Origin: Kaistia terrae
Lineage (GTDB): Bacteria > Pseudomonadota > Alphaproteobacteria > Rhizobiales > Kaistiaceae
Direction: 5' to 3'
Assembly (NCBI RefSeq): GCF_026344005.1
Contig: NZ_JAPKNH010000007.1
Span: forward strand, 1 to 64,000
DNA: 64,000 nucleotides
Shown piece after piece: positions 9,357 through 44,228 of this stretch. How positions within the stretch are numbered: the first letter of the stretch is position 1; each line of letters opens with the position of its first letter. The position numbers and the translations under genes are program-made. The notes beneath the pieces were generated by a model. That model saw only the letters and a list, made by a program, of their open reading frames with translations. It had not been told where the DNA came from and did not search any database.

Positions 9357-9431
9357 GCTGCAGTAGCTCAGTGGTAGAGCACACCATTGGTAATGGTGAG
9401 GTCGAGAGTTCAATCCTCTCTTGCAGCACCA
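9357..9431 (+). tRNA. tRNA-Thr (GGT), CCA encoded; insertion target
   Basis: A complete 75-base tRNA with acceptor stem GCTGCAG paired to TTGCAGC (one G-T pair), a D-arm, the anticodon loop TTGGTAA giving GGT, a T-arm with TTCAATC and an encoded CCA. Its last 26 bases recur at 21138 and, for 23 bases, at 32310. The gene was therefore the target of two integrative elements, which restored the tRNA on insertion. Confidence 0.97.
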
Positions 9432-9432
9432 C
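9406..9432 (+). repeat. attachment core (attL) of tandem elements in tRNA-Thr
   Basis: A 27-base sequence inside the tRNA 3' end, starting GAGTTCAATCC and ending in GCACCAC, is repeated exactly at 21138-21164; its last 23 bases recur at 32310-32332. An integrase gene starts 78 bases after it. This is the left border of element 1. Confidence 0.88.
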
Positions 9433-9509
9433 TCATCCCCTTGATTTTACATAAGTTATTGCCCCACAAGGGGTTCGGCCGTTCCACTTGGACACAGGAA
9501 CGGTACACT

Positions 9510-11165
9510 ATGGTGCTTCAGATGGCCCGCCCGTGGCGTGATCCCGACTCCGGAATTTTCTATCTCCGCAAGCGTGTCCCGCGCGCCCTACTGCCGCAGG
9601 TGAAGGGCACGACCGCGATGCTGCCGGTCGGCGATGAGCATGTCGCCGTGCGGGTTGGAGACATCACCAAGGCATCGCTGCGCACCCGCGAACCGAGCGA
9701 AGCGAAGACACGCTACACAGCCGCTTCCGCTGCCCTGTCAGCCCATCTCCAAGCCGTTGTGGCCGGTCCGATGCGACTCAGTCGGCGGCAGGTCGTGGCT
9801 ATCGCGGGCACGGTCTACAACGACAATCTGGAAGAGCTCAGTAACGAGCCGGGAGAAGTCGGCATCTGGAGGCATGCCCTCAGATTGCACGCCGAAGCCC
9901 GCGCCAAGGGCAAGCTGGAGCAGTGGGTCGGCCCGCAAGTCGATCTCGAGTTGGCGAAGCTCCACATCGTGGCGCATCCCGAGTCCAGGACTGCCCTGAT
10001 CGAGGAGATCGACCGCGCTCTCGTTCAACGCGGCGAACTCATGAAGCGGTTCAGCGAGGGGGACTTCCGGCCTGACCCGGAGGCAGCGCGTTTCCCGGAC
10101 CCAGGTGCTGCACTTGCACCCTTGCGGTCCCCAGCGCCTACACCGCCCGGAAGCGCTTCTGCAAATCCTGCCAGCCTCGGCCTCAACATCCTCGATGTCT
10201 GGGCGAAGTTCAAAGCAACTATCACTCCTGCTTCGTCCACGGTCCGGCGCTGGGAGCCAGCCATCAAGGCCTTCGACGCCTTCATCGAAAGCCGTGGCAT
10301 GGAGACGGTCACTCCCGGCGATGCAACGCTGTTTGCGGACCATCGCGTTGCAGCGGGTATCTCAGCGACATCCGCGAGCAAGGTTGATCTTGCAGCCGTG
10401 AAGCGCATGTTTACCTTCGCTCACAAGCGCAGCTGGTTGAAAGCAAACCCACTGGCGGGCCTGCGACGCGAGCGGAGGGGCACTGAGGAGGACCGGGACC
10501 GTGAGGGCCGAGACTTCCATCCGCCCGAGTGTCGGACGATCCTCAACACCACGAGGACCATCTACGCTGAGCCGGGAGGCCGGGGGGATGCTCTCCTGAA
10601 CACTATTCGCTGGGTGCCATGGATCTGTGCCTACTCTGGCGTAAGGCCCGGCGAGGCGATCCAGTTGCGAAAAGAGGACTTCAGCAGCGAAGACGGCATC
10701 CCCTTTTTCCATGTCCGTGGCAGTGCAGGCACTGTGAAGACGGGCAAGGGTCGCAGAACTCCCATCCATCGCTGCCTCGTCGCTGAGGGCCTGCTTGACT
10801 TCGTCCGGAACGCAAAAGCGGGTCACCTCTTCGTCAATGTCACGGGCAACGACGCTGACGCTATAAGGCGAGGTATCGATACATCGCGCGGGCGATTGGG
10901 AGAGTGGGTGCGCGCAATCGGCGTGAATGACCCTGAGATCTCGCCATCGCACTCATGGCGACACACATTCAAAGCCATCGCCCTCGACGGCGGGATGACG
11001 GAGAAGGTTGCGGACGCCATCTGTGGGCACGCTCAAGCCACCCAAGGCCGCAAGTACGGCACCGTCTCGCTGGCAACGAAGGCGGCAGCGCTTGAGGCGT
11101 TCCCAGAATACGCGCTGGAAGCCCCCACCGCCGCCGCTCCAAAGGATGCACCCGGTCGCCTGTAA
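9510..11165 (+). CDS. tyrosine recombinase, integrase of element 1
   Basis: A 551-residue integrase with an N-terminal Arm-type region (MARPWRDPDSG..), a core-binding domain about 220-320 and a catalytic domain with Arg379 (YSGVRPGE), Lys near 410, His481-x-x-Arg484 (HSWRH), His507 (CGHAQ) and Tyr516 (KYGTV). All active-site residues are present, so it should be functional. The ATG at 9510 follows AGGAACGG. It is related to the element 2 integrase at 21245, sharing the MARP start and LRTR-PxEAK segment. Its place next to tRNA-Thr implies it recognises the tRNA 3' end. Confidence 0.93.
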   Translation: MVLQMARPWRDPDSGIFYLRKRVPRALLPQVKGTTAMLPVGDEHVAVRVGDITKASLRTREPSEAKTRYTAASAALSAHLQAVVAGPMRLSRRQVVAIAGTVYNDNLEELSNEPGEVGIWRHALRLHAEARAKGKLEQWVGPQVDLELAKLHIVAHPESRTALIEEIDRALVQRGELMKRFSEGDFRPDPEAARFPDPGAALAPLRSPAPTPPGSASANPASLGLNILDVWAKFKATITPASSTVRRWEPAIKAFDAFIESRGMETVTPGDATLFADHRVAAGISATSASKVDLAAVKRMFTFAHKRSWLKANPLAGLRRERRGTEEDRDREGRDFHPPECRTILNTTRTIYAEPGGRGDALLNTIRWVPWICAYSGVRPGEAIQLRKEDFSSEDGIPFFHVRGSAGTVKTGKGRRTPIHRCLVAEGLLDFVRNAKAGHLFVNVTGNDADAIRRGIDTSRGRLGEWVRAIGVNDPEISPSHSWRHTFKAIALDGGMTEKVADAICGHAQATQGRKYGTVSLATKAAALEAFPEYALEAPTAAAPKDAPGRL

Positions 11166-11527: not shown

Positions 11528-12823
11528 TCACGCCTGCACGGTGACCGGGATGCCCGTGGACGTGACCTCGCGAGATGCCACCTCCATCATCAGCCTCGCT
11601 TCATGAGCCCGTGAGCGGGCAACGAGAAGGCCGTCATGGAGGCCAAGAGCAACCAGCTTCTTCGCCTTCATCTCCTCCAGCACACGAACGAGGATCTGGC
11701 TCTCGGTGTGCATGAGCGTCAGGCCGAGGCCTACGCCGAAGCATGGACGAAGCGCCGGGTGTTTATGGAGGATGGCGTCCTTGGTCCGCTTGACGGTCCA
11801 GCCGGGCGGTAGGATGGCCGTTGCATCACCATCATCTGTGCTCGTCACCAGTTCCGAGGGCCATGTGGAGCGGTGAAAGTCGTCCATGAGAAGGCAGTTC
11901 ACCGCCATCTTCACAGCCCTGCGGTGCCCCTCCAGGCCGGACATGGAATAGAGGTCGCCATCCGGCGCGGTCGCCCCGGCAGACGCATAGGCCAGCCGAG
12001 GGAACATGGAGGAGAAGTCGAGATTGGTGACCGACTCCCCCTCGATCCGTATCCCCTGCCTCCGGTCCGTCCTGAGGTTCTGCCAGAAGCCGCCGAAGAG
12101 CCGCCCATTACGGTCGAACCGGGGCTCTCCGTCACCGTCCACCAGCGTGAAGTAACGGGCCATGGCGCGGCTATGCGAGTCGACAGGACCATTGCCATCG
12201 TCGACGAAGGTGATGTCGGCCTCTCCAAGGAAGGCGTTCAGGCCGCGCACGGTATCCCGGATGGCGATGGACTCGGCCGTATCGTCGTAATCTACCAGCG
12301 TCCGGGCAGTCACCACTCCGTCGCTGACGCGTTGACGAGTCTTGCGGGACAAGATGACCAACTCCTCCTCAGCCTGACGACAGAAGTCAGCCAGATCAAT
12401 CCCCGCTGCCCGCACCGTCCGCGAGAACGACTCTGTGGGGGCCAGAGAAGACGCCTCACGGCGTTGCGGAGAGTTCACCCACCGCACCACCCCAAGGTCA
12501 CCAAGGCGGCTCAGGAGTCCCCGGAAGGGCTTGCCGAGGGCGGGGTTATCATAGCGCGTTCCGCCCTTCCTGCCGTTACCGGTGAGGATGGCCACACGGC
12601 CGGTGTCCGGGGGCATGACCACGGCATAGGCAAGGTTCGCGACAGTTGTTTCCACGGCGGCGAGGTGGTGCCGCAGATCGCTCTCGCGGCGTTGACGCGT
12701 GCGGCTTCCCGCTAATCGCTCGTGCTGATCGACAGTTGCCGTGATCTCGGCAACAAGCTGGCGCAGCGTGGGGCCTTGTGCGCCGAGCCAATTATCAAAC
12801 CAGCGGTGTCGTTCAGGCGTCAT
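11528..12823 (-). CDS. compact DNA polymerase family A-like palm protein (hypothetical)
   Basis: A 431-residue protein with no annotated relative that I can name. The C-terminal half shows three blocks in the order of family A polymerase motifs. Block A is LDFSSMFPRLAY, with Asp269 and Ser271, like the DYSxIELR motif. Block B is RRAVKMAVN (Arg302, Lys305), like the RxxxK of the fingers helix. Block C is LGLHDGLLV (His396, Asp397), like the HDE motif. A conserved-looking GRLFGGFWQNL precedes block A. No 3'-5' exonuclease domain is visible. The ATG at 12823 has AGGA five bases upstream; the longer frame to 13045 looks non-coding. Polymerase activity is inference; it could be a catalytically altered derivative (HDG instead of HDE). 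Confidence 0.65.
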   Translation of the reverse strand: MTPERHRWFDNWLGAQGPTLRQLVAEITATVDQHERLAGSRTRQRRESDLRHHLAAVETTVANLAYAVVMPPDTGRVAILTGNGRKGGTRYDNPALGKPFRGLLSRLGDLGVVRWVNSPQRREASSLAPTESFSRTVRAAGIDLADFCRQAEEELVILSRKTRQRVSDGVVTARTLVDYDDTAESIAIRDTVRGLNAFLGEADITFVDDGNGPVDSHSRAMARYFTLVDGDGEPRFDRNGRLFGGFWQNLRTDRRQGIRIEGESVTNLDFSSMFPRLAYASAGATAPDGDLYSMSGLEGHRRAVKMAVNCLLMDDFHRSTWPSELVTSTDDGDATAILPPGWTVKRTKDAILHKHPALRPCFGVGLGLTLMHTESQILVRVLEEMKAKKLVALGLHDGLLVARSRAHEARLMMEVASREVTSTGIPVTVQA

Positions 12824-13046
12824 GAGGTTCCTGCGGTGGCCGCATCGGAAACGGACCCTCGGAGTGCTGCCGGAAGGTCCTAGCGGGTGCATATGACGTG
12901 TGTCCTGGGGGCTGTCGAGGGCGTGCCCGATACGCCATGAGCAAAAGAACAGCGACAGGGGGACGAGCGCAGCCGCGGACGACGAATGCTCATCCGTGGG
13001 GACCATCGGTGGATGAATGTCGGCGGCGTTCCCTCTCGGTGTCACT

Positions 13047-13326
13047 GATAGTCAATGGGAGAGGTCCACTTGAGGTCCATCTATCGGGCATAGTCCACCA
13101 TCATTCCCTCCTCTCCTCCCCCTATCTTCCCTCTCCTAGGGTGGGGGGTATTCAGTGGTCTATTGGTGGTGGGTAATCGGAGGTCTCCTCTTTAATGTAT
13201 CTCGGATAGTCCATCGGAGGGGAAGCTCATGGAGAAGACCACCTCCATCAATCCCCCTCCTCTCATCTATCGTGCCCCCTCCTAGAGTGGTCCCTATTCA
13301 AGGGTCCATAGGTGGTCCCCAATCGC
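13047..13326. repeat. two degenerate copies of a polypyrimidine/GGTGG repeat upstream of the polymerase-like gene
   Basis: Two stretches, about 13047-13180 and 13205-13326, share the same order of motifs: GATAGTC at the left, a CT-rich block (TCCCTCCTCTCC type), CTCCTAG followed by GGTGG or AGTGG, TATTCA, a second GGTCTAT/GGTCCAT block and a final AATCG. They differ by substitutions and small gaps, so the duplication is old. They lie between the decayed phage regulatory modules and the polymerase-like gene, where leader or operator sequence would be expected. Confidence 0.5.
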
Positions 13327-13548
13327 CTCAGGCATCCGCAGCGCGGTCCGCATATCGGCGTGAGCCGTCTCCCGAGCGGCCCCGTTCAGGGGATAGCCGC
13401 TTGGGTCCGCGATGGTCGGGACAACACCACCCGCCAGCCACGCGCGGAACTCCTCGGCCTGCGGCTTCGTCGAGGCCATGAGCAGCAGTTTCACGCCCTT
13501 GCGGGTCAGGAAGACTGCGGCCGAAGGCGACGCGGCTGCCGGGACCAC
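13294..13548 (-). pseudogene. fragment of a Bro-N-type phage antirepressor
   Basis: The 84-residue frame contains FLTRKGVKLLLMASTKPQAE followed by F-R-A-W-L and V-V-P-T-I, which is the C-terminal half of the Bro-N domain of phage antirepressor proteins. The N-terminal half is missing in this frame, and sequence upstream is frame-broken, so this is probably a remnant of a longer gene. Bro-N proteins bind DNA or repressors and regulate phage development. The fragment ends just before the degenerate repeats ahead of the polymerase-like gene. Confidence 0.5.
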
Positions 13549-13559
13549 TCAAACAATTT

Positions 13560-14117
13560 GTTAGAGAGCTCCCTTGAACGCGATGATATCAGCCAAGGGC
13601 CACCATCTCCCCGGATCAAACGGCCAATGCCGGGCACCGTGAGGTAACGGTTATTCGACAGGCCATACTTCGTGAAGAAACGGCGGGGGCGCCCACCACG
13701 CAGCATCGCCGCGCTCGCCCATGTCTCCCCAAAACTGGGGACACATGCGACCAAGCCTCAGAATACTGGACAACCCAAAATTGGATGATGCCTCGGGTGC
13801 GTCCGAGACCATCAAGTCGATGTCGTGGAGTAAGTACGCATGAGCTTCCCGAAGTACTCTGCCACGTCACGGCACTTGGTGAACACCTCGCCATGGCGGG
13901 AGAAGACGACCTGCCGCGCATAGCGGGCTGGGAGTGCAACGGGGGCGGTGGTCGTGTCGAGTTGGGGCACGCTTGGCCATGTCTCCTCAAGATTGAGGGC
14001 ACGTGAGGAAGTGGTCGATGTCAGCGCGCCAATGTCCCGAAGGACGGCGCCGCTGGAAATAGCGGCCACGTCGCGGCTGTCGGCGAACACCTCACCATCA
14101 CGGGTGAAGACGACCAT
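13560..14117 (-). pseudogene. decayed tandem Rha/Bro-type regulatory modules
   Basis: Two copies of the same peptide pattern occur in the frame starting at 14117: VVFTRDGEVFADSRDVA and, about 70 residues on, VVFSRHGEVFTKCRDVAEYF. The first is followed by VLRDIGAL, the pattern of phage Rha regulators. In the second, a one-base loss after YFGK breaks the frame; restoring it gives K-A-H-A-Y-L-L-H-D-I, the matching Rha segment. Each copy ends with an Asn-Leu/Phe-Gly-type stretch whose DNA forms a short palindrome. It is best read as a degenerating tandem array of phage regulatory domains; whether any part is still translated is unknown. Confidence 0.5.
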
Positions 14118-14370
14118 CCGCGCTCAGGGCGCTGGGAGGGCAAGGGTATCTCCAAAATTGGAGACATCCGCTGTGCGGACGTAGAGGGCTTGCTCAAATT
14201 TGAGCACCCCCATCCCTCAGATCTGAGGAGCGGCCCGCTCGCGCTGATAAGGGAGAGGCCACGGACCTTAAGTGGGGAGTGACCCCACTTCATCCGCCAG
14301 CGCTCGACGTCGCGCGGGTACCTCTGGCCGTCCTGCGGGTAAACGTAGGGAGTCTGCGCAAAGATGCGCA
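13727..14370. repeat. array of short palindromes with varied but self-complementary arms
   Basis: Eight short inverted repeats lie in 640 bases: CCCCAAAACTGGGG (13727), CCAAAATTGG (13775), CCTCAAGATTGAGG (13985), CTCCAAAATTGGAG (14150), GCTCAAATTTGAGC (14192), CCTCAGATCTGAGG (14215), AAGTGGGG with its complement across a 5-base loop (14270-14290), and TGCGCA-AAGA-TGCGCA (14355). The arms differ between copies, yet both sides change together. Flanks such as GTCT on the left and ACAC on the right recur in several copies. This suggests hairpins or dyad binding sites kept by selection. Confidence 0.6.
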
Positions 14371-14390
14371 CACCCCCGCGACTACGGCCA

Positions 14391-14792
14391 CGCCGTCACA
14401 TTCAACACGCTACGGGCCGTCCCGCGTCCCCCGCGAGCTGTCGCGATGTAGGCTTCGTTGAGGGCCTTTGCGAGCCCGTTGGCTCTGGCCACGCCGCGTT
14501 CCCGCAGCGCTGCTATCGTCCCTGCCAGCCCGTCCGCGCGGTCCTGTGCGCCCTCCCTGAGCGCAGCAGCGGCAGCGTGATTGCCGAGGCCCGGAGATGG
14601 ATCGCGCCGTTCGGATTGCCGAGCTTCACGCCTCGCGCCTTGGCCGCTGCAAGGGCCTCCTTCGTGCGCTGAGAGATGGCCTCGCGCTCCTTCTGAGCGA
14701 CCATAGCCATGATACCCACGGCGAACTCCACGCCCGAGGCGACGGGCTCCGCGTGTTGCCGAAGACGCGATGCCTGCCTCGGCCTGTGGCAA
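14391..14792 (-). pseudogene. serine recombinase remnant, copy 1
   Basis: Two frames together encode the C-terminal part of a serine recombinase of the resolvase/invertase family: [20 protein letters not shown] in one frame, and [20 protein letters not shown] with a following TARGG in another. A frameshift separates them, and the N-terminal catalytic Ser region is absent. A closely similar remnant lies in the same orientation at 16556-16931. The pair brackets the lipoprotein and AraC genes. Confidence 0.75.
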
Positions 14793-15022
14793 CTCCGGTG
14801 CTCACGCCAATACAAGCGGCAATATCTCGGGATCAAGCAGGGCAGTGCTAGCTGATAGGTTGCGTGAGGATCATGCGCACGCAGCACGAGCACTCGACGG
14901 AAGGAAGCTGGGCACTTTCCCCGACGTAGCGTTGCTACCTGGCGTTGCCACTTGCCACCTAAAGCTGCCTATGATTAGGAATTCACTGTTTAAACGCTCT
15001 CATGAAAGCTGGGCCAGTTCAG

Positions 15023-16555: not shown

Positions 16556-16931
16556 CGCCATCACGTTCAGCACGCTACGGGCCGTCCAGCGCCCCCTCGA
16601 GGTGTCGCGATATGGGCATCGTTGAGGGCCTTTGCGAGGCCGTTAGCGCTGGTCACGCTGCGTTCCCGCAGCGCCGCTATCGTCCTGCCAGCGCGTCCGC
16701 ATGGGCCTCTGTGCGCCCTCCCTAAGCGCCGCAACGACCTCATTGCCTGGGCAAAGGAGATGGCTCGCACCATTCGGGTTGTCGAGCTTCACGCCTCGCG
16801 GCTTCACCGCTCCGAGGGCCTCCTTGTGCGCTGGGAGATGGCCTCACGCTCCTTGTGAGCGACAATGGCCATGATGCCCACCGTGAACTTGTCGGCATGC
16901 GACATGTCACGAGCTGTGAACTCCACGCCAA
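16556..16931 (-). pseudogene. serine recombinase remnant, copy 2
   Basis: This is a diverged direct repeat of 14391-14730, carrying the same C-terminal recombinase sequence in broken frames: [20 protein letters not shown] in one and EREAISQR-type sequence in another. The two copies, in the same orientation, flank the lipoprotein and AraC genes. The complete recombinase at 17029-17661 is a different, only distantly similar member. Confidence 0.7.
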
Positions 16932-17028: not shown

Positions 17029-17661
17029 TCATGGGGCCGAAGCCGCCTCTCTCACGATCCTATCGACCGTGCTGACACCGATACGGAATTCCTTGGCGAT
17101 CTTCACCTTGCCCTTGCCGGCTGCTCTCGCCTCTAGCACGGCGGCATGAACGCTGGCCCATTCGGCCGCCTTCTTCCGGTCCTTCTCCGTTCCCTTGGCG
17201 GGGCGGCCCAGCTTGGCGCCGTTGGCCTTGGCGCGGGAGAGGCCAGCGTTGACCCGCTCGCGGATCATCTCGCGCTCGAACTCGGCGAACACGCCCATCA
17301 TCTGGAACATCGCCTTGCCCGCTGGCGTCGACGTGTCGAGGCCCTGCTGGTGCAGGTAGAGGTCGACACTCTTGGCATGAAGCTCGCCCAGGAAGGTAAG
17401 AAGGTCGGTCAACGAGCGGCCGAGGCGGTCCACGCTCCAAGCGGCGATGATGTCGATCTCGCGGCGAGCCACTGCCTTCATCATGGCATCAAGTCCTGGG
17501 CGCTTGTCCCGCCCCTTGGCTCCCGAGATGCCGGCATCCTCGAAGGTAGCGCCCACCTGCCAGCCATGGCGCTGGGCGACAGCCTCAAGCTCGCGGCGCT
17601 GGTTCTCGACCGTCTGGCCGGAGGTCGAGACGCGGAGGTAGAGGGCGACACGCTTGGTCAT
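17029..17661 (-). CDS. serine recombinase (resolvase/invertase family)
   Basis: A complete 210-residue small serine recombinase. YLRVSTSGQTVENQ places the catalytic Ser near residue 12; the conserved WSVDRLGRSLTDLL and FAEFEREMIRERVNAGL blocks follow, and the C-terminal helix-turn-helix of Hin/resolvase type (KIAKEFRIGVSTVDRIV) ends it. It should catalyse resolution or inversion through a Ser-DNA intermediate at a nearby site. The ATG has AGGAACC upstream. It lies within element 1, next to an older recombinase remnant. Confidence 0.93.
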   Translation of the reverse strand: MTKRVALYLRVSTSGQTVENQRRELEAVAQRHGWQVGATFEDAGISGAKGRDKRPGLDAMMKAVARREIDIIAAWSVDRLGRSLTDLLTFLGELHAKSVDLYLHQQGLDTSTPAGKAMFQMMGVFAEFEREMIRERVNAGLSRAKANGAKLGRPAKGTEKDRKKAAEWASVHAAVLEARAAGKGKVKIAKEFRIGVSTVDRIVREAASAP

Positions 17662-43472: not shown

Positions 43473-44228
43473 TCAGGGGCGACCGAGTTCGGCGATGGCG
43501 GCGCGCATCGGCTCAAGCGAGGGCGTGACGACCCCCTCCGATGGCAACGCCAACTCGAGAATCATGAAAATTCCGCCGGCGACGGCGACAGAACAGAGGA
43601 AAAGCGCCAGAATTGCCGTGACATTGCGCGGCGCGAACAGGCCGAAGCTGGCAAACAGGATGGACAGCCAGAAGATCAGAAGAACCAGAAACGGCCCCGG
43701 CACGGCGCTCGTGTCCCGCTCGATCAGCAGCCAACGCGCATCCTGAATTTCGTTGACGAGCTGCACGGCCTGCGCCTGGATCTGGCGTTCCCGGTCGGTC
43801 GTCGGACGAAGGTCAAATATCTGATCGCTGACCCTTTCCAGCATTTCCAACGTCTGCATTCCCATCTCGTGCCGATCGACACCGGCCGACAATTCGCCAA
43901 CCTTGGCCTGCGCATAGGTGCGAATCGTGTCTCGTATGCCGCTGGCGTCCGGCCCATAGCGGACCAGCGAGCGGTTCAGGCGAACGATATCGACGGACAG
44001 ATTGCCGATGGCATTGGTGCGGGCGGAAAAGGACGTGCTGGCGGTCGATATGAGGAGACCGATCACCAGCGCGGACATGGTTCCCACAACCGCCATGGAA
44101 ACGCCGACGGCGTTGCGCGTTTCGGCGCCGAGATGGTGCTCCGGCAACAACCGCGAAGCTGTGAGACCACACAAGACACCACCGAAGATCGCCACGAAGG
44201 CAACGAGACTAACCGCGATCGAATTCAT
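43473..44228 (-). CDS. DUF4239 family membrane protein
   Basis: A 251-residue protein with two N-terminal membrane segments (about 5-25 and 45-62), a cytoplasmic or periplasmic helical region with SARTNAIGNLSVDIVRLNRSL, and two C-terminal segments (about 175-225). This fits the DUF4239 family (bestrophin-like in name in some databases), whose function is not known. It stands as a single gene; its ATG is at 44228. Confidence 0.8.
   Translation of the reverse strand: MNSIAVSLVAFVAIFGGVLCGLTASRLLPEHHLGAETRNAVGVSMAVVGTMSALVIGLLISTASTSFSARTNAIGNLSVDIVRLNRSLVRYGPDASGIRDTIRTYAQAKVGELSAGVDRHEMGMQTLEMLERVSDQIFDLRPTTDRERQIQAQAVQLVNEIQDARWLLIERDTSAVPGPFLVLLIFWLSILFASFGLFAPRNVTAILALFLCSVAVAGGIFMILELALPSEGVVTPSLEPMRAAIAELGRP

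Follow-up and report, generated by a model that had tools for sequence, protein, structure and literature searches.

Between positions 13720 and 14377 of the DNA analysed here, a stretch of 64,000 nucleotides at the start of Kaistia terrae contig NZ_JAPKNH010000007.1 (the window), short palindromes differ in their arms from copy to copy, yet each left arm pairs with its own right arm. What keeps the arms paired while their sequence varies? A sequence-only reading had counted eight such dyads, placed them in decayed Rha/Bro-type regulatory modules, and proposed selection either for hairpins or for dyads bound by related proteins of differing specificity. Phages commonly encode Rha and Bro-N proteins, most of which have, to our knowledge, no established mode of action. 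Our analysis indicates that the dyads are very probably relics of Rha self-operators, that is, palindromes within the regulator's own gene whose half-sites would be read by three residues (x, a, and b) of the predicted recognition helix.

Direct reading, a repeat search, and a palindrome scan gave seven clear short dyads plus a weak one (Table 1), and bore out the claim that the arms are unlike between copies but self-paired. The count of eight held only in part, as operator 2 is weak and the perfect repeat between operators 6 and 8 has a different core. Operator 2 was seen by direct reading and the repeat search, fell under the threshold of the palindrome scan, and was missed by the scan for the Rha-type core, which returned five window sites (13731, 13989, 14154, 14196, and 14360). 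The core of operator 6, which lies 24 nt from operator 5, is too diverged for that scan. Two unrelated weak palindromes (13889-13898 and 14301-14316) also came from the palindrome scan. Six palindromes scoring at least 6 were found in 660 nt, whereas 300 first-order Markov resamples averaged 1.0 and never exceeded 5. Density by itself is nevertheless modest evidence, since six also occur in each of two other 660-nt bins of the window. The case for the window dyads rests on homology: the sites lie in or beside rha remnants, where intact rha genes have them.

Table 1. Dyads and gene remnants in the window, with the residues that the recognition code described in the text would predict for each putative operator
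Feature	Positions	Strand	Sequence	Encoded peptide or match	Predicted x, a, b
Putative relic Rha operator 1	13720..13747	-	CATGTCTCCCCA-aaac-TGGGGACACATG; arms CCCC/GGGG, minus-strand core AGTTTT	ACVPSFGETWA (rha piece)	D, H, R (class DHR)
Putative relic Rha operator 2, weak	13769..13790	-	ACAACCCAAAATTGGATGAT; ATCC-AATTTT-GGGT; assigned by reading	SSNFGL	fits A-H-R type
Putative relic Rha operator 3	13978..14005	-	13985-13998 CCTCAA-ga-TTGAGG; arms CCTC/GAGG	ALNLEET	D, N, R (class DNR)
Putative relic Rha operator 4	14144..14169	-	14149-14164 TCTCCAAAATTGGAGA; arms CTCC/GGAG	DVSNFGDTLA (by reading)	class G/A-HR
Putative relic Rha operator 5	14186..14211	-	14191-14206 TGCTCAAATTTGAGCA; arms GCTC/GAGC	VLKFEQALYV (by reading)	K/R, N, R
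Putative relic Rha operator 6	14210..14235	-	14215-14228 CCTCAGATCTGAGG; arms CCTC/GAGG, core AGATCT; assigned by reading		class DNR
Inverted repeat, perfect 8-bp	14270..14290	.	AAGTGGGG-AGTGA-CCCCACTT; without Rha-type core		
Putative relic Rha operator 8	14348..14377	-	14349-14376, with TGCGCA-aaga-TGCGCA; arms GCGC/GCGC	VRIFAQTPYV	K/R, D, R
rha remnant A	13935..14111	-	VFTRDGEVFADSRDVAAI (gap) SSGAVLRDIGAL...ALNLEETW	tblastn E 2.8e-11	
rha remnant B	13732..13907	-	VFSRHGEVFTKCRDVAEYFGK, frameshift after FGK, then HAYLLHDIDLMVSDAPEASSNFGLSS	tblastn E 3e-9, two halves joined (13771-13842 + 13845-13907)	
rha remnant C	13674..13748	-	piece around operator 1, ACVPSFGETWASAAMLRGG; overlaps end of remnant B	tblastn E 1.4e-8, joined with remnant B piece	
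rha remnant D	14312..14362	-	FAQTPYVYPQDGQRYPR, starting at operator 8	tblastn E 2.3e-6	
Bro-N domain remnant	13294..13548	-	downstream of rha pieces	Pfam PF02498 E 1e-6, 29.7 bits vs cut-off 25.6	

Six to seven of the dyads fall inside broken rha pieces on the minus strand. Using 217 representative intact Rha segments as tblastn queries, we detected at least four such pieces, and together with the Bro-N remnant they confirm the association with decayed Rha/Bro-type modules. Judged from their sequence, the rha pieces are relics and not family members; the Pfam Rha profile (PF09669), applied at its gathering score, matched none of the six window ORFs scanned. The recognition helix of remnant A is harmed by a deletion, and the broken helix upstream of operator 2 reads H-A-Y-L-L-H-D-I, in which A still stands at x and agrees with the A at arm 4. 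A DNA search with the window region gave three matches in rha genes, namely the genome's own rha on contig C37 (E 8e-9), an rha of the same genus (G023, E 0.001), and one on a Shinella plasmid (E 4e-4). The remaining matches look like chance, and the same search of the phage collection gave none.

Several neighbouring features were noted by eye. A tRNA-Thr followed by a 592-aa ORF resembling a tyrosine integrase occupies 9357-11165, and a minus-strand ORF of 505 aa (11528-13045), with no Pfam match over the cut-off, contains DFSSMFPRLAYA, which suggests a polymerase-like protein. An ORF of 210 aa that resembles a serine recombinase lies with apparently decayed pieces at 14382-14893, 16567-16931, and 17029-17661; a close relative adjoins the rha of locus L001, elsewhere in the same genome.

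The intact counterparts carry the dyad at the same place. On a Shinella zoogloeoides plasmid, an intact rha frame contains a perfect 24-bp palindrome, GGTCTCTCCAAATTTGGAGAGACC, that encodes GLSKFGET and shares its CTCC/GGAG arms with operator 4. Rha loci were gathered from viral and genome contigs by tblastn or Pfam, from taxa including Alpha- and Betaproteobacteria, Bacillota, and Bacteroidota. The 471 loci scanned (L061-L535 without L296-L299) yielded 405 usable loci, 409 records, and 217 representatives after 90% dereplication; L001-L060 lay outside this set, and 14 records of L001-L030 were tested later. Across the first 145 distinct segments, the strongest palindrome usually sat at one place, after the predicted recognition helix and ahead of the strand that precedes RDGF, with varying arms. 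A dyad of the form X4X3X2X1-AATTTT/AAAATT-X1'..X4' was present in 190 of the 217 dereplicated genes at a score of at least 4, and in 42 of 651 synonymous shuffles; at a score of at least 6, the counts were 88 of 217 and 7 of 651. No site reached threshold in 27 of the 217 representatives. The dyad is about 20-26 bp long. Counted from the first recognition-helix codon, it usually lies 40-66 nt downstream (range 36-114), and arm pairing is above expectation out to arm 9 (144/190 vs 53). Among the representatives, 25 distinct perfect 4-bp arms were found. The dyad in the rha of phage F10 is the strongest palindrome in the 22.9 kb examined. At locus L231, a reading as two good tandem units was rejected: the first unit lacks a palindrome, and the match to the L231 helix is confined to the second.

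We then compared site bases with regulator residues. In intact relatives, three residues of the predicted recognition helix (pattern K-r-H-x-a-V-L-b) appear to predict the site bases almost one for one. Residue a corresponds to arm 2 (H with C, N with T, D/E with G, and S with A), b to arm 1 (R/K with C, D/E/Q with G), and x to arm 4 (R/K/Q/N with G, D with C). An information scan of 124 of the 145 first-set segments, with values expressed as a share of base entropy, ranked these three pairs on top of 306 residue-arm pairs: H+2 with arm 2 (0.85), H+1 with arm 4 (0.77), and H+5 with arm 1 (0.73), followed by the next pair at 0.47. None of 2000 shuffles in the control reproduced the residue-base code.

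The two-residue rule was written down before the held-out data were seen, and the third pairing (x with arm 4) came from the first-set information scan. Only the palindrome and its core, and not the residues, were used to locate sites, which reached a score of at least 4 in 127 of the 145 first-set and 63 of the 72 held-out representatives; one of the latter (L300, of the phage F10 type) was known before the rules were written. In the 63 held-out operators, averaged over half-sites, the code was correct in 54/56 for a, 54/60 for b, and 56.5/57 for x, while guessing the commonest base would score 0.40, 0.75, and 0.56, respectively; scoring skipped residues that the rule tables do not list (7 of 63 at a, 3 at b, and 6 at x). 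All three positions were correct in both arms in 39 of the 48 held-out representatives whose residues were all in the tables. Arm 1 was the least exact position. Pooling all 190 representatives gave His-C 72/74, Asn-T 50.5/53, Asp-G 42/43, and Ser-A 5/7 for a; Arg-C 122/126, Lys-C 9/10, Glu-G 15.5/17, Asp-G 12/13, and Gln-G 9.5/14 for b; and Lys/Arg-G 100/100 and Asp-C 48.5/50 for x.

Shared ancestry was addressed in two ways. When pairs were matched at a similarity of 0.7 or more outside the traits, both arms shifted as predicted in 21/24 cases for a, 10/14 for b, and 11/12 for x. With the trait residues masked, tree reconstruction required at least 41 changes of the Asn state and 42 of the T state. 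Among independent pairs from well-supported branches, agreement with the code was 7/7, 8/8, 5/5, a mean of 3.7/5, and 5/5, and none was opposite; such pairs are few (5-8 per test), so that 0.05 is within reach of the His and Asn tests alone, both of which attain it. Ten of the 190 representatives, with discordant arm 2, were omitted from the tree tests; 168 representatives entered the b test and 162 the x test. At L322:1159-1184, where the Rha is 85% identical to that of phage F10 and has Ser at a, one arm is CAC as predicted and the other is still CGC, a half-changed site.

The fit is poorer farther from these genes. Ten of the 14 records from L001-L030 are less than 0.9 similar to the representatives (0.49-0.66); four of the ten have a site at threshold, with 3/4 correct for a, 3/4 for b, and 0/1 for x. 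Below threshold, L017 and L018 fit by eye, and no dyad was found in L009. Two records count against the claim: L002, from the same genus as the window, has a site scoring 3.8 whose arms disagree with its helix, and the site in L001 is poor, scoring just 2.6. Among named phages, the rha of phi80, the founding member (KRHKDVLR), contains cacccaGCGC-AATTTT-GCGCccattg, its core near position 43946 of NC_021190, with GCGC arms as the code predicts, and that of 3-SAC12 (KQHKHVLE) has a low-scoring site, GCCG-AAAACT-CGGC, that also agrees. The low-scoring site of mEp460 (KRHDDVLK) departs from the code at a single arm base, that of phiFL2A involves one residue outside the rules, and the core scan found no such site in P22 rha. 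In intact rha genes, then, a site lies in the regulator's own gene and matches its specificity residues, with site-less and distant members as exceptions.

The palindromes could instead follow from conserved x-N-F-y codons at a protein turn, and in Proteobacteria the core does usually encode Asn-Phe or something similar. We consider this explanation close to negligible in probability. Synonymous shuffling destroys the dyad, which contradicts the possibility, raised in the sequence-only reading, that the palindromes reflect only a codon pattern. At the protein level, the residues flanking Asn-Phe look as though they are encoded by reverse-complementary codons, and the flanking pairs R/A, H/M, L/K, and P/R make no chemical sense, yet fit such codons. 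Moreover, many Bacillota genes (e.g. L178 and L184) keep the dyad in another reading frame. The same code is followed in every frame: 150 representatives have the dyad in frame 0 (a 134.5/141, b 133.5/143, x 129/130), 33 in frame 1 (31/32, 27.5/30, 31.5/32), and 7 in frame 2 (7/7, 7/7, 5/5).

Paired arms around a conserved A/U-rich centre would also be expected of a stem in rha mRNA, selected for its structure and bound at the loop by Rha or another factor. Such a stem would favour G-U, whereas G-T and A-C mismatches were equally frequent at arms 1-4 (11 each). At the more loosely paired arms 5-10, their numbers were almost the same (76 and 71). The core also occurs in both orientations relative to the rha gene, and the arm bases track helix residues. 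An RNA hairpin is thus very improbable, and that half of the earlier proposal is disfavoured. As the code holds in all frames and in the tree pairs, and as the inner arms show no more G-T than A-C mismatches, both being rare, selection acts on the dyad as DNA and not on a peptide or an RNA hairpin. The other half of the proposal, binding by related proteins of differing specificity, is strongly supported by the held-out set, the three frames, and the tree pairs.

Pairing could also arise without selection. Template switching, a known mutational process, corrects quasi-palindromes by rewriting one arm from the sequence of the other. It leaves the match to helix residues and the constant position unexplained, and as the whole explanation it is hardly credible; template switching may still help the arms to change together.

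Another question is which protein would read the site. Phage immunity repressors diverge in specificity, and the dyad might be an operator or stoperator of a CI-like repressor, with rha only its host. Against this, there was no clear excess of further copies within 10 kb of 58 rha genes (975 kb); the scan was confined to the 58 of 80 long loci with a recognised operator. At no more than one arm mismatch, a gene's own arms recurred 15 times for 58 operators, and the arms of other phages 43 times for 205. The two exact recurrences have G/C centres. Relaxing the search to as many as two mismatches, with a loose match to the core, left five places, none of them close. Since the arms also follow Rha's own helix, another repressor is a slight prospect, if marginally less so than an RNA stem or template switching. 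In addition, the code agrees with familiar base contacts when the paired strand is counted (Arg/His with G, Asn with A, Asp/Glu with C), and direct reading by Rha is therefore far likelier than reading by a third party.

Structure prediction is consistent with direct reading by Rha. An AlphaFold model of the F10-type Rha, based on an alignment of 69 Rha sequences, contains helices at 26-33 and 37-45 and a strand pair at 58-65/74-82, with mean pLDDT above 90 in each block within residues 21-90. The modelled N-terminal domain thus has a helix-turn-helix and a strand pair (wing). Residues H37 D38 N39 V40 L41 R42 open the second helix of the predicted helix-turn-helix, and the code residues are 38, 39, and 42, positions 2, 3, and 6 of that helix. 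The wing strand begins within the part of the protein that the operator DNA encodes. A PDB sequence search gave one match (E 0.47), and Foldseek found none at E<=0.001 among solved structures. The VIA rows, which include RacA-DNA (5i44, Z 4.3) and MarR/MerR proteins, are weak and within the noise range. That neither Foldseek nor VIA gave a clear relative is due in part to the long C-terminal helix, which fills the match list.

From sequence and these models, we infer Rha binding, dimerisation, and function as follows. The rha gene would encode a helix-turn-helix and wing protein whose dimer binds the palindrome in the gene, each half-site being read by three residues (x at arm 4, a at arm 2, b at arm 1), with the A/T core as a nearly constant spacer. 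Arms would vary between genes because Rha specificity varies, and would stay paired because one dimer reads both. Since helix and target usually lie within ~70 nt, recombination would move both together. What binding achieves is less certain. Negative autoregulation by Rha bound in the path of transcription is the likeliest function, and we favour it slightly. Alternatively, and overlapping with this, Rha may bind the in-gene site to control replication, segregation, or packaging. The annotation of the phi80 gene reads 'DNA synthesis inhibition in IHF- hosts', and a single site near the gene recalls a centromere-like or origin-like layout; against this, no link between the site and an origin was found, and the site keeps its in-gene location across several phyla, in phages and prophages alike. 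We regard such a role as rather unlikely, though a serious contender.

In the window, the proteins are broken, and the sites would therefore be fossils. The arms predict about six specificities among seven sites, so the region has probably gathered pieces of several rha genes of differing specificity, which would explain why the arms are unlike between copies yet paired. The copies are likely worn relics of Rha DNA-binding sites and not a working array. The perfect 8-bp repeat among the rha pieces is not of the Rha type, and self-operator relics leave it unexplained.

A similar arrangement was found in Bro-N antirepressor genes, which have a palindrome just after the DDDEK motif in 22 of 35 representatives at a score of at least 8, compared with 2 of 175 synonymous shuffles. 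These palindromes occupy a place analogous to that in rha (L616-L695; L298:8604-8626 in F10; about 12576-12600 in L576). By eye, the half-site often varies with the last helix residue before a conserved Ala (D/TCG, N/TCC, E/TCA), with L650 and L661 as exceptions, and the half-sites seem to follow the putative recognition helix. As in rha, the palindrome lies just past the codons of that helix; unlike in rha, the core and half-sites are different, and the Bro-N (PF02498) code is only glimpsed. In phage mEp460, a gene annotated as KilA-N-like contains a palindrome, CAACACCCAgaatttGGGTGTTG, at L299:23634-23656, ~173 nt from the gene start. A scan with the mEp460 KilA-N protein gave near-identical copies only (80 loci at 99-100%), and we treat this palindrome as a lead. 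There is perhaps an even chance that phage antirepressor genes are self-addressed more generally, with helix codons and DNA address, usually within ~70 nt, forming a recombinable lock-and-key cassette that diversifies unsplit, in Bro-N genes as well and perhaps in KilA-N genes.

For the LacI family, a two-residue, two-base code was derived from local or autoregulatory sites and supported by convergence (Camas, Alm and Poyatos 2010, PMC2978694). The Rha code is likewise a helix-turn-helix family code inferred from local sites. In that study, binding sites were sought in intergenic regions, whereas the Rha site lies within the coding sequence of its own DNA-binding domain; Rha also uses three residues and belongs to a little-studied phage regulator family. 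At the lac O3 operator, LacI bound in its own transcription path limits its own synthesis (PMC3711431). This is one site in one system, while the Rha position is kept family-wide as specificity diversifies, and a roadblock by Rha would be an analogy. The phi80/P22 rha family (PF09669) is associated with an IHF-dependent growth phenotype (PMC4936722), and phi80 rha itself has the site that the code predicts. In ICP1, rha and Bro-N genes adjoin CRISPR-Cas and nuclease genes (PMC8263062). Our literature search, which may have missed older, subscription-only work, found no in-rha operator or Rha recognition code.

These results offer a readable code for the poorly known Rha family, in which each gene's own predicted site is a built-in positive control. 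The code turns many unannotated genes into testable protein-operator pairs and offers candidate orthogonal regulators. In Rha, protein-site coevolution can be followed stepwise, including half-changed sites such as that of L322. If the proposal is true, self-addressed genes would supply protein-operator pairs as a natural collection, in which 25 distinct 4-bp arms have been observed so far.
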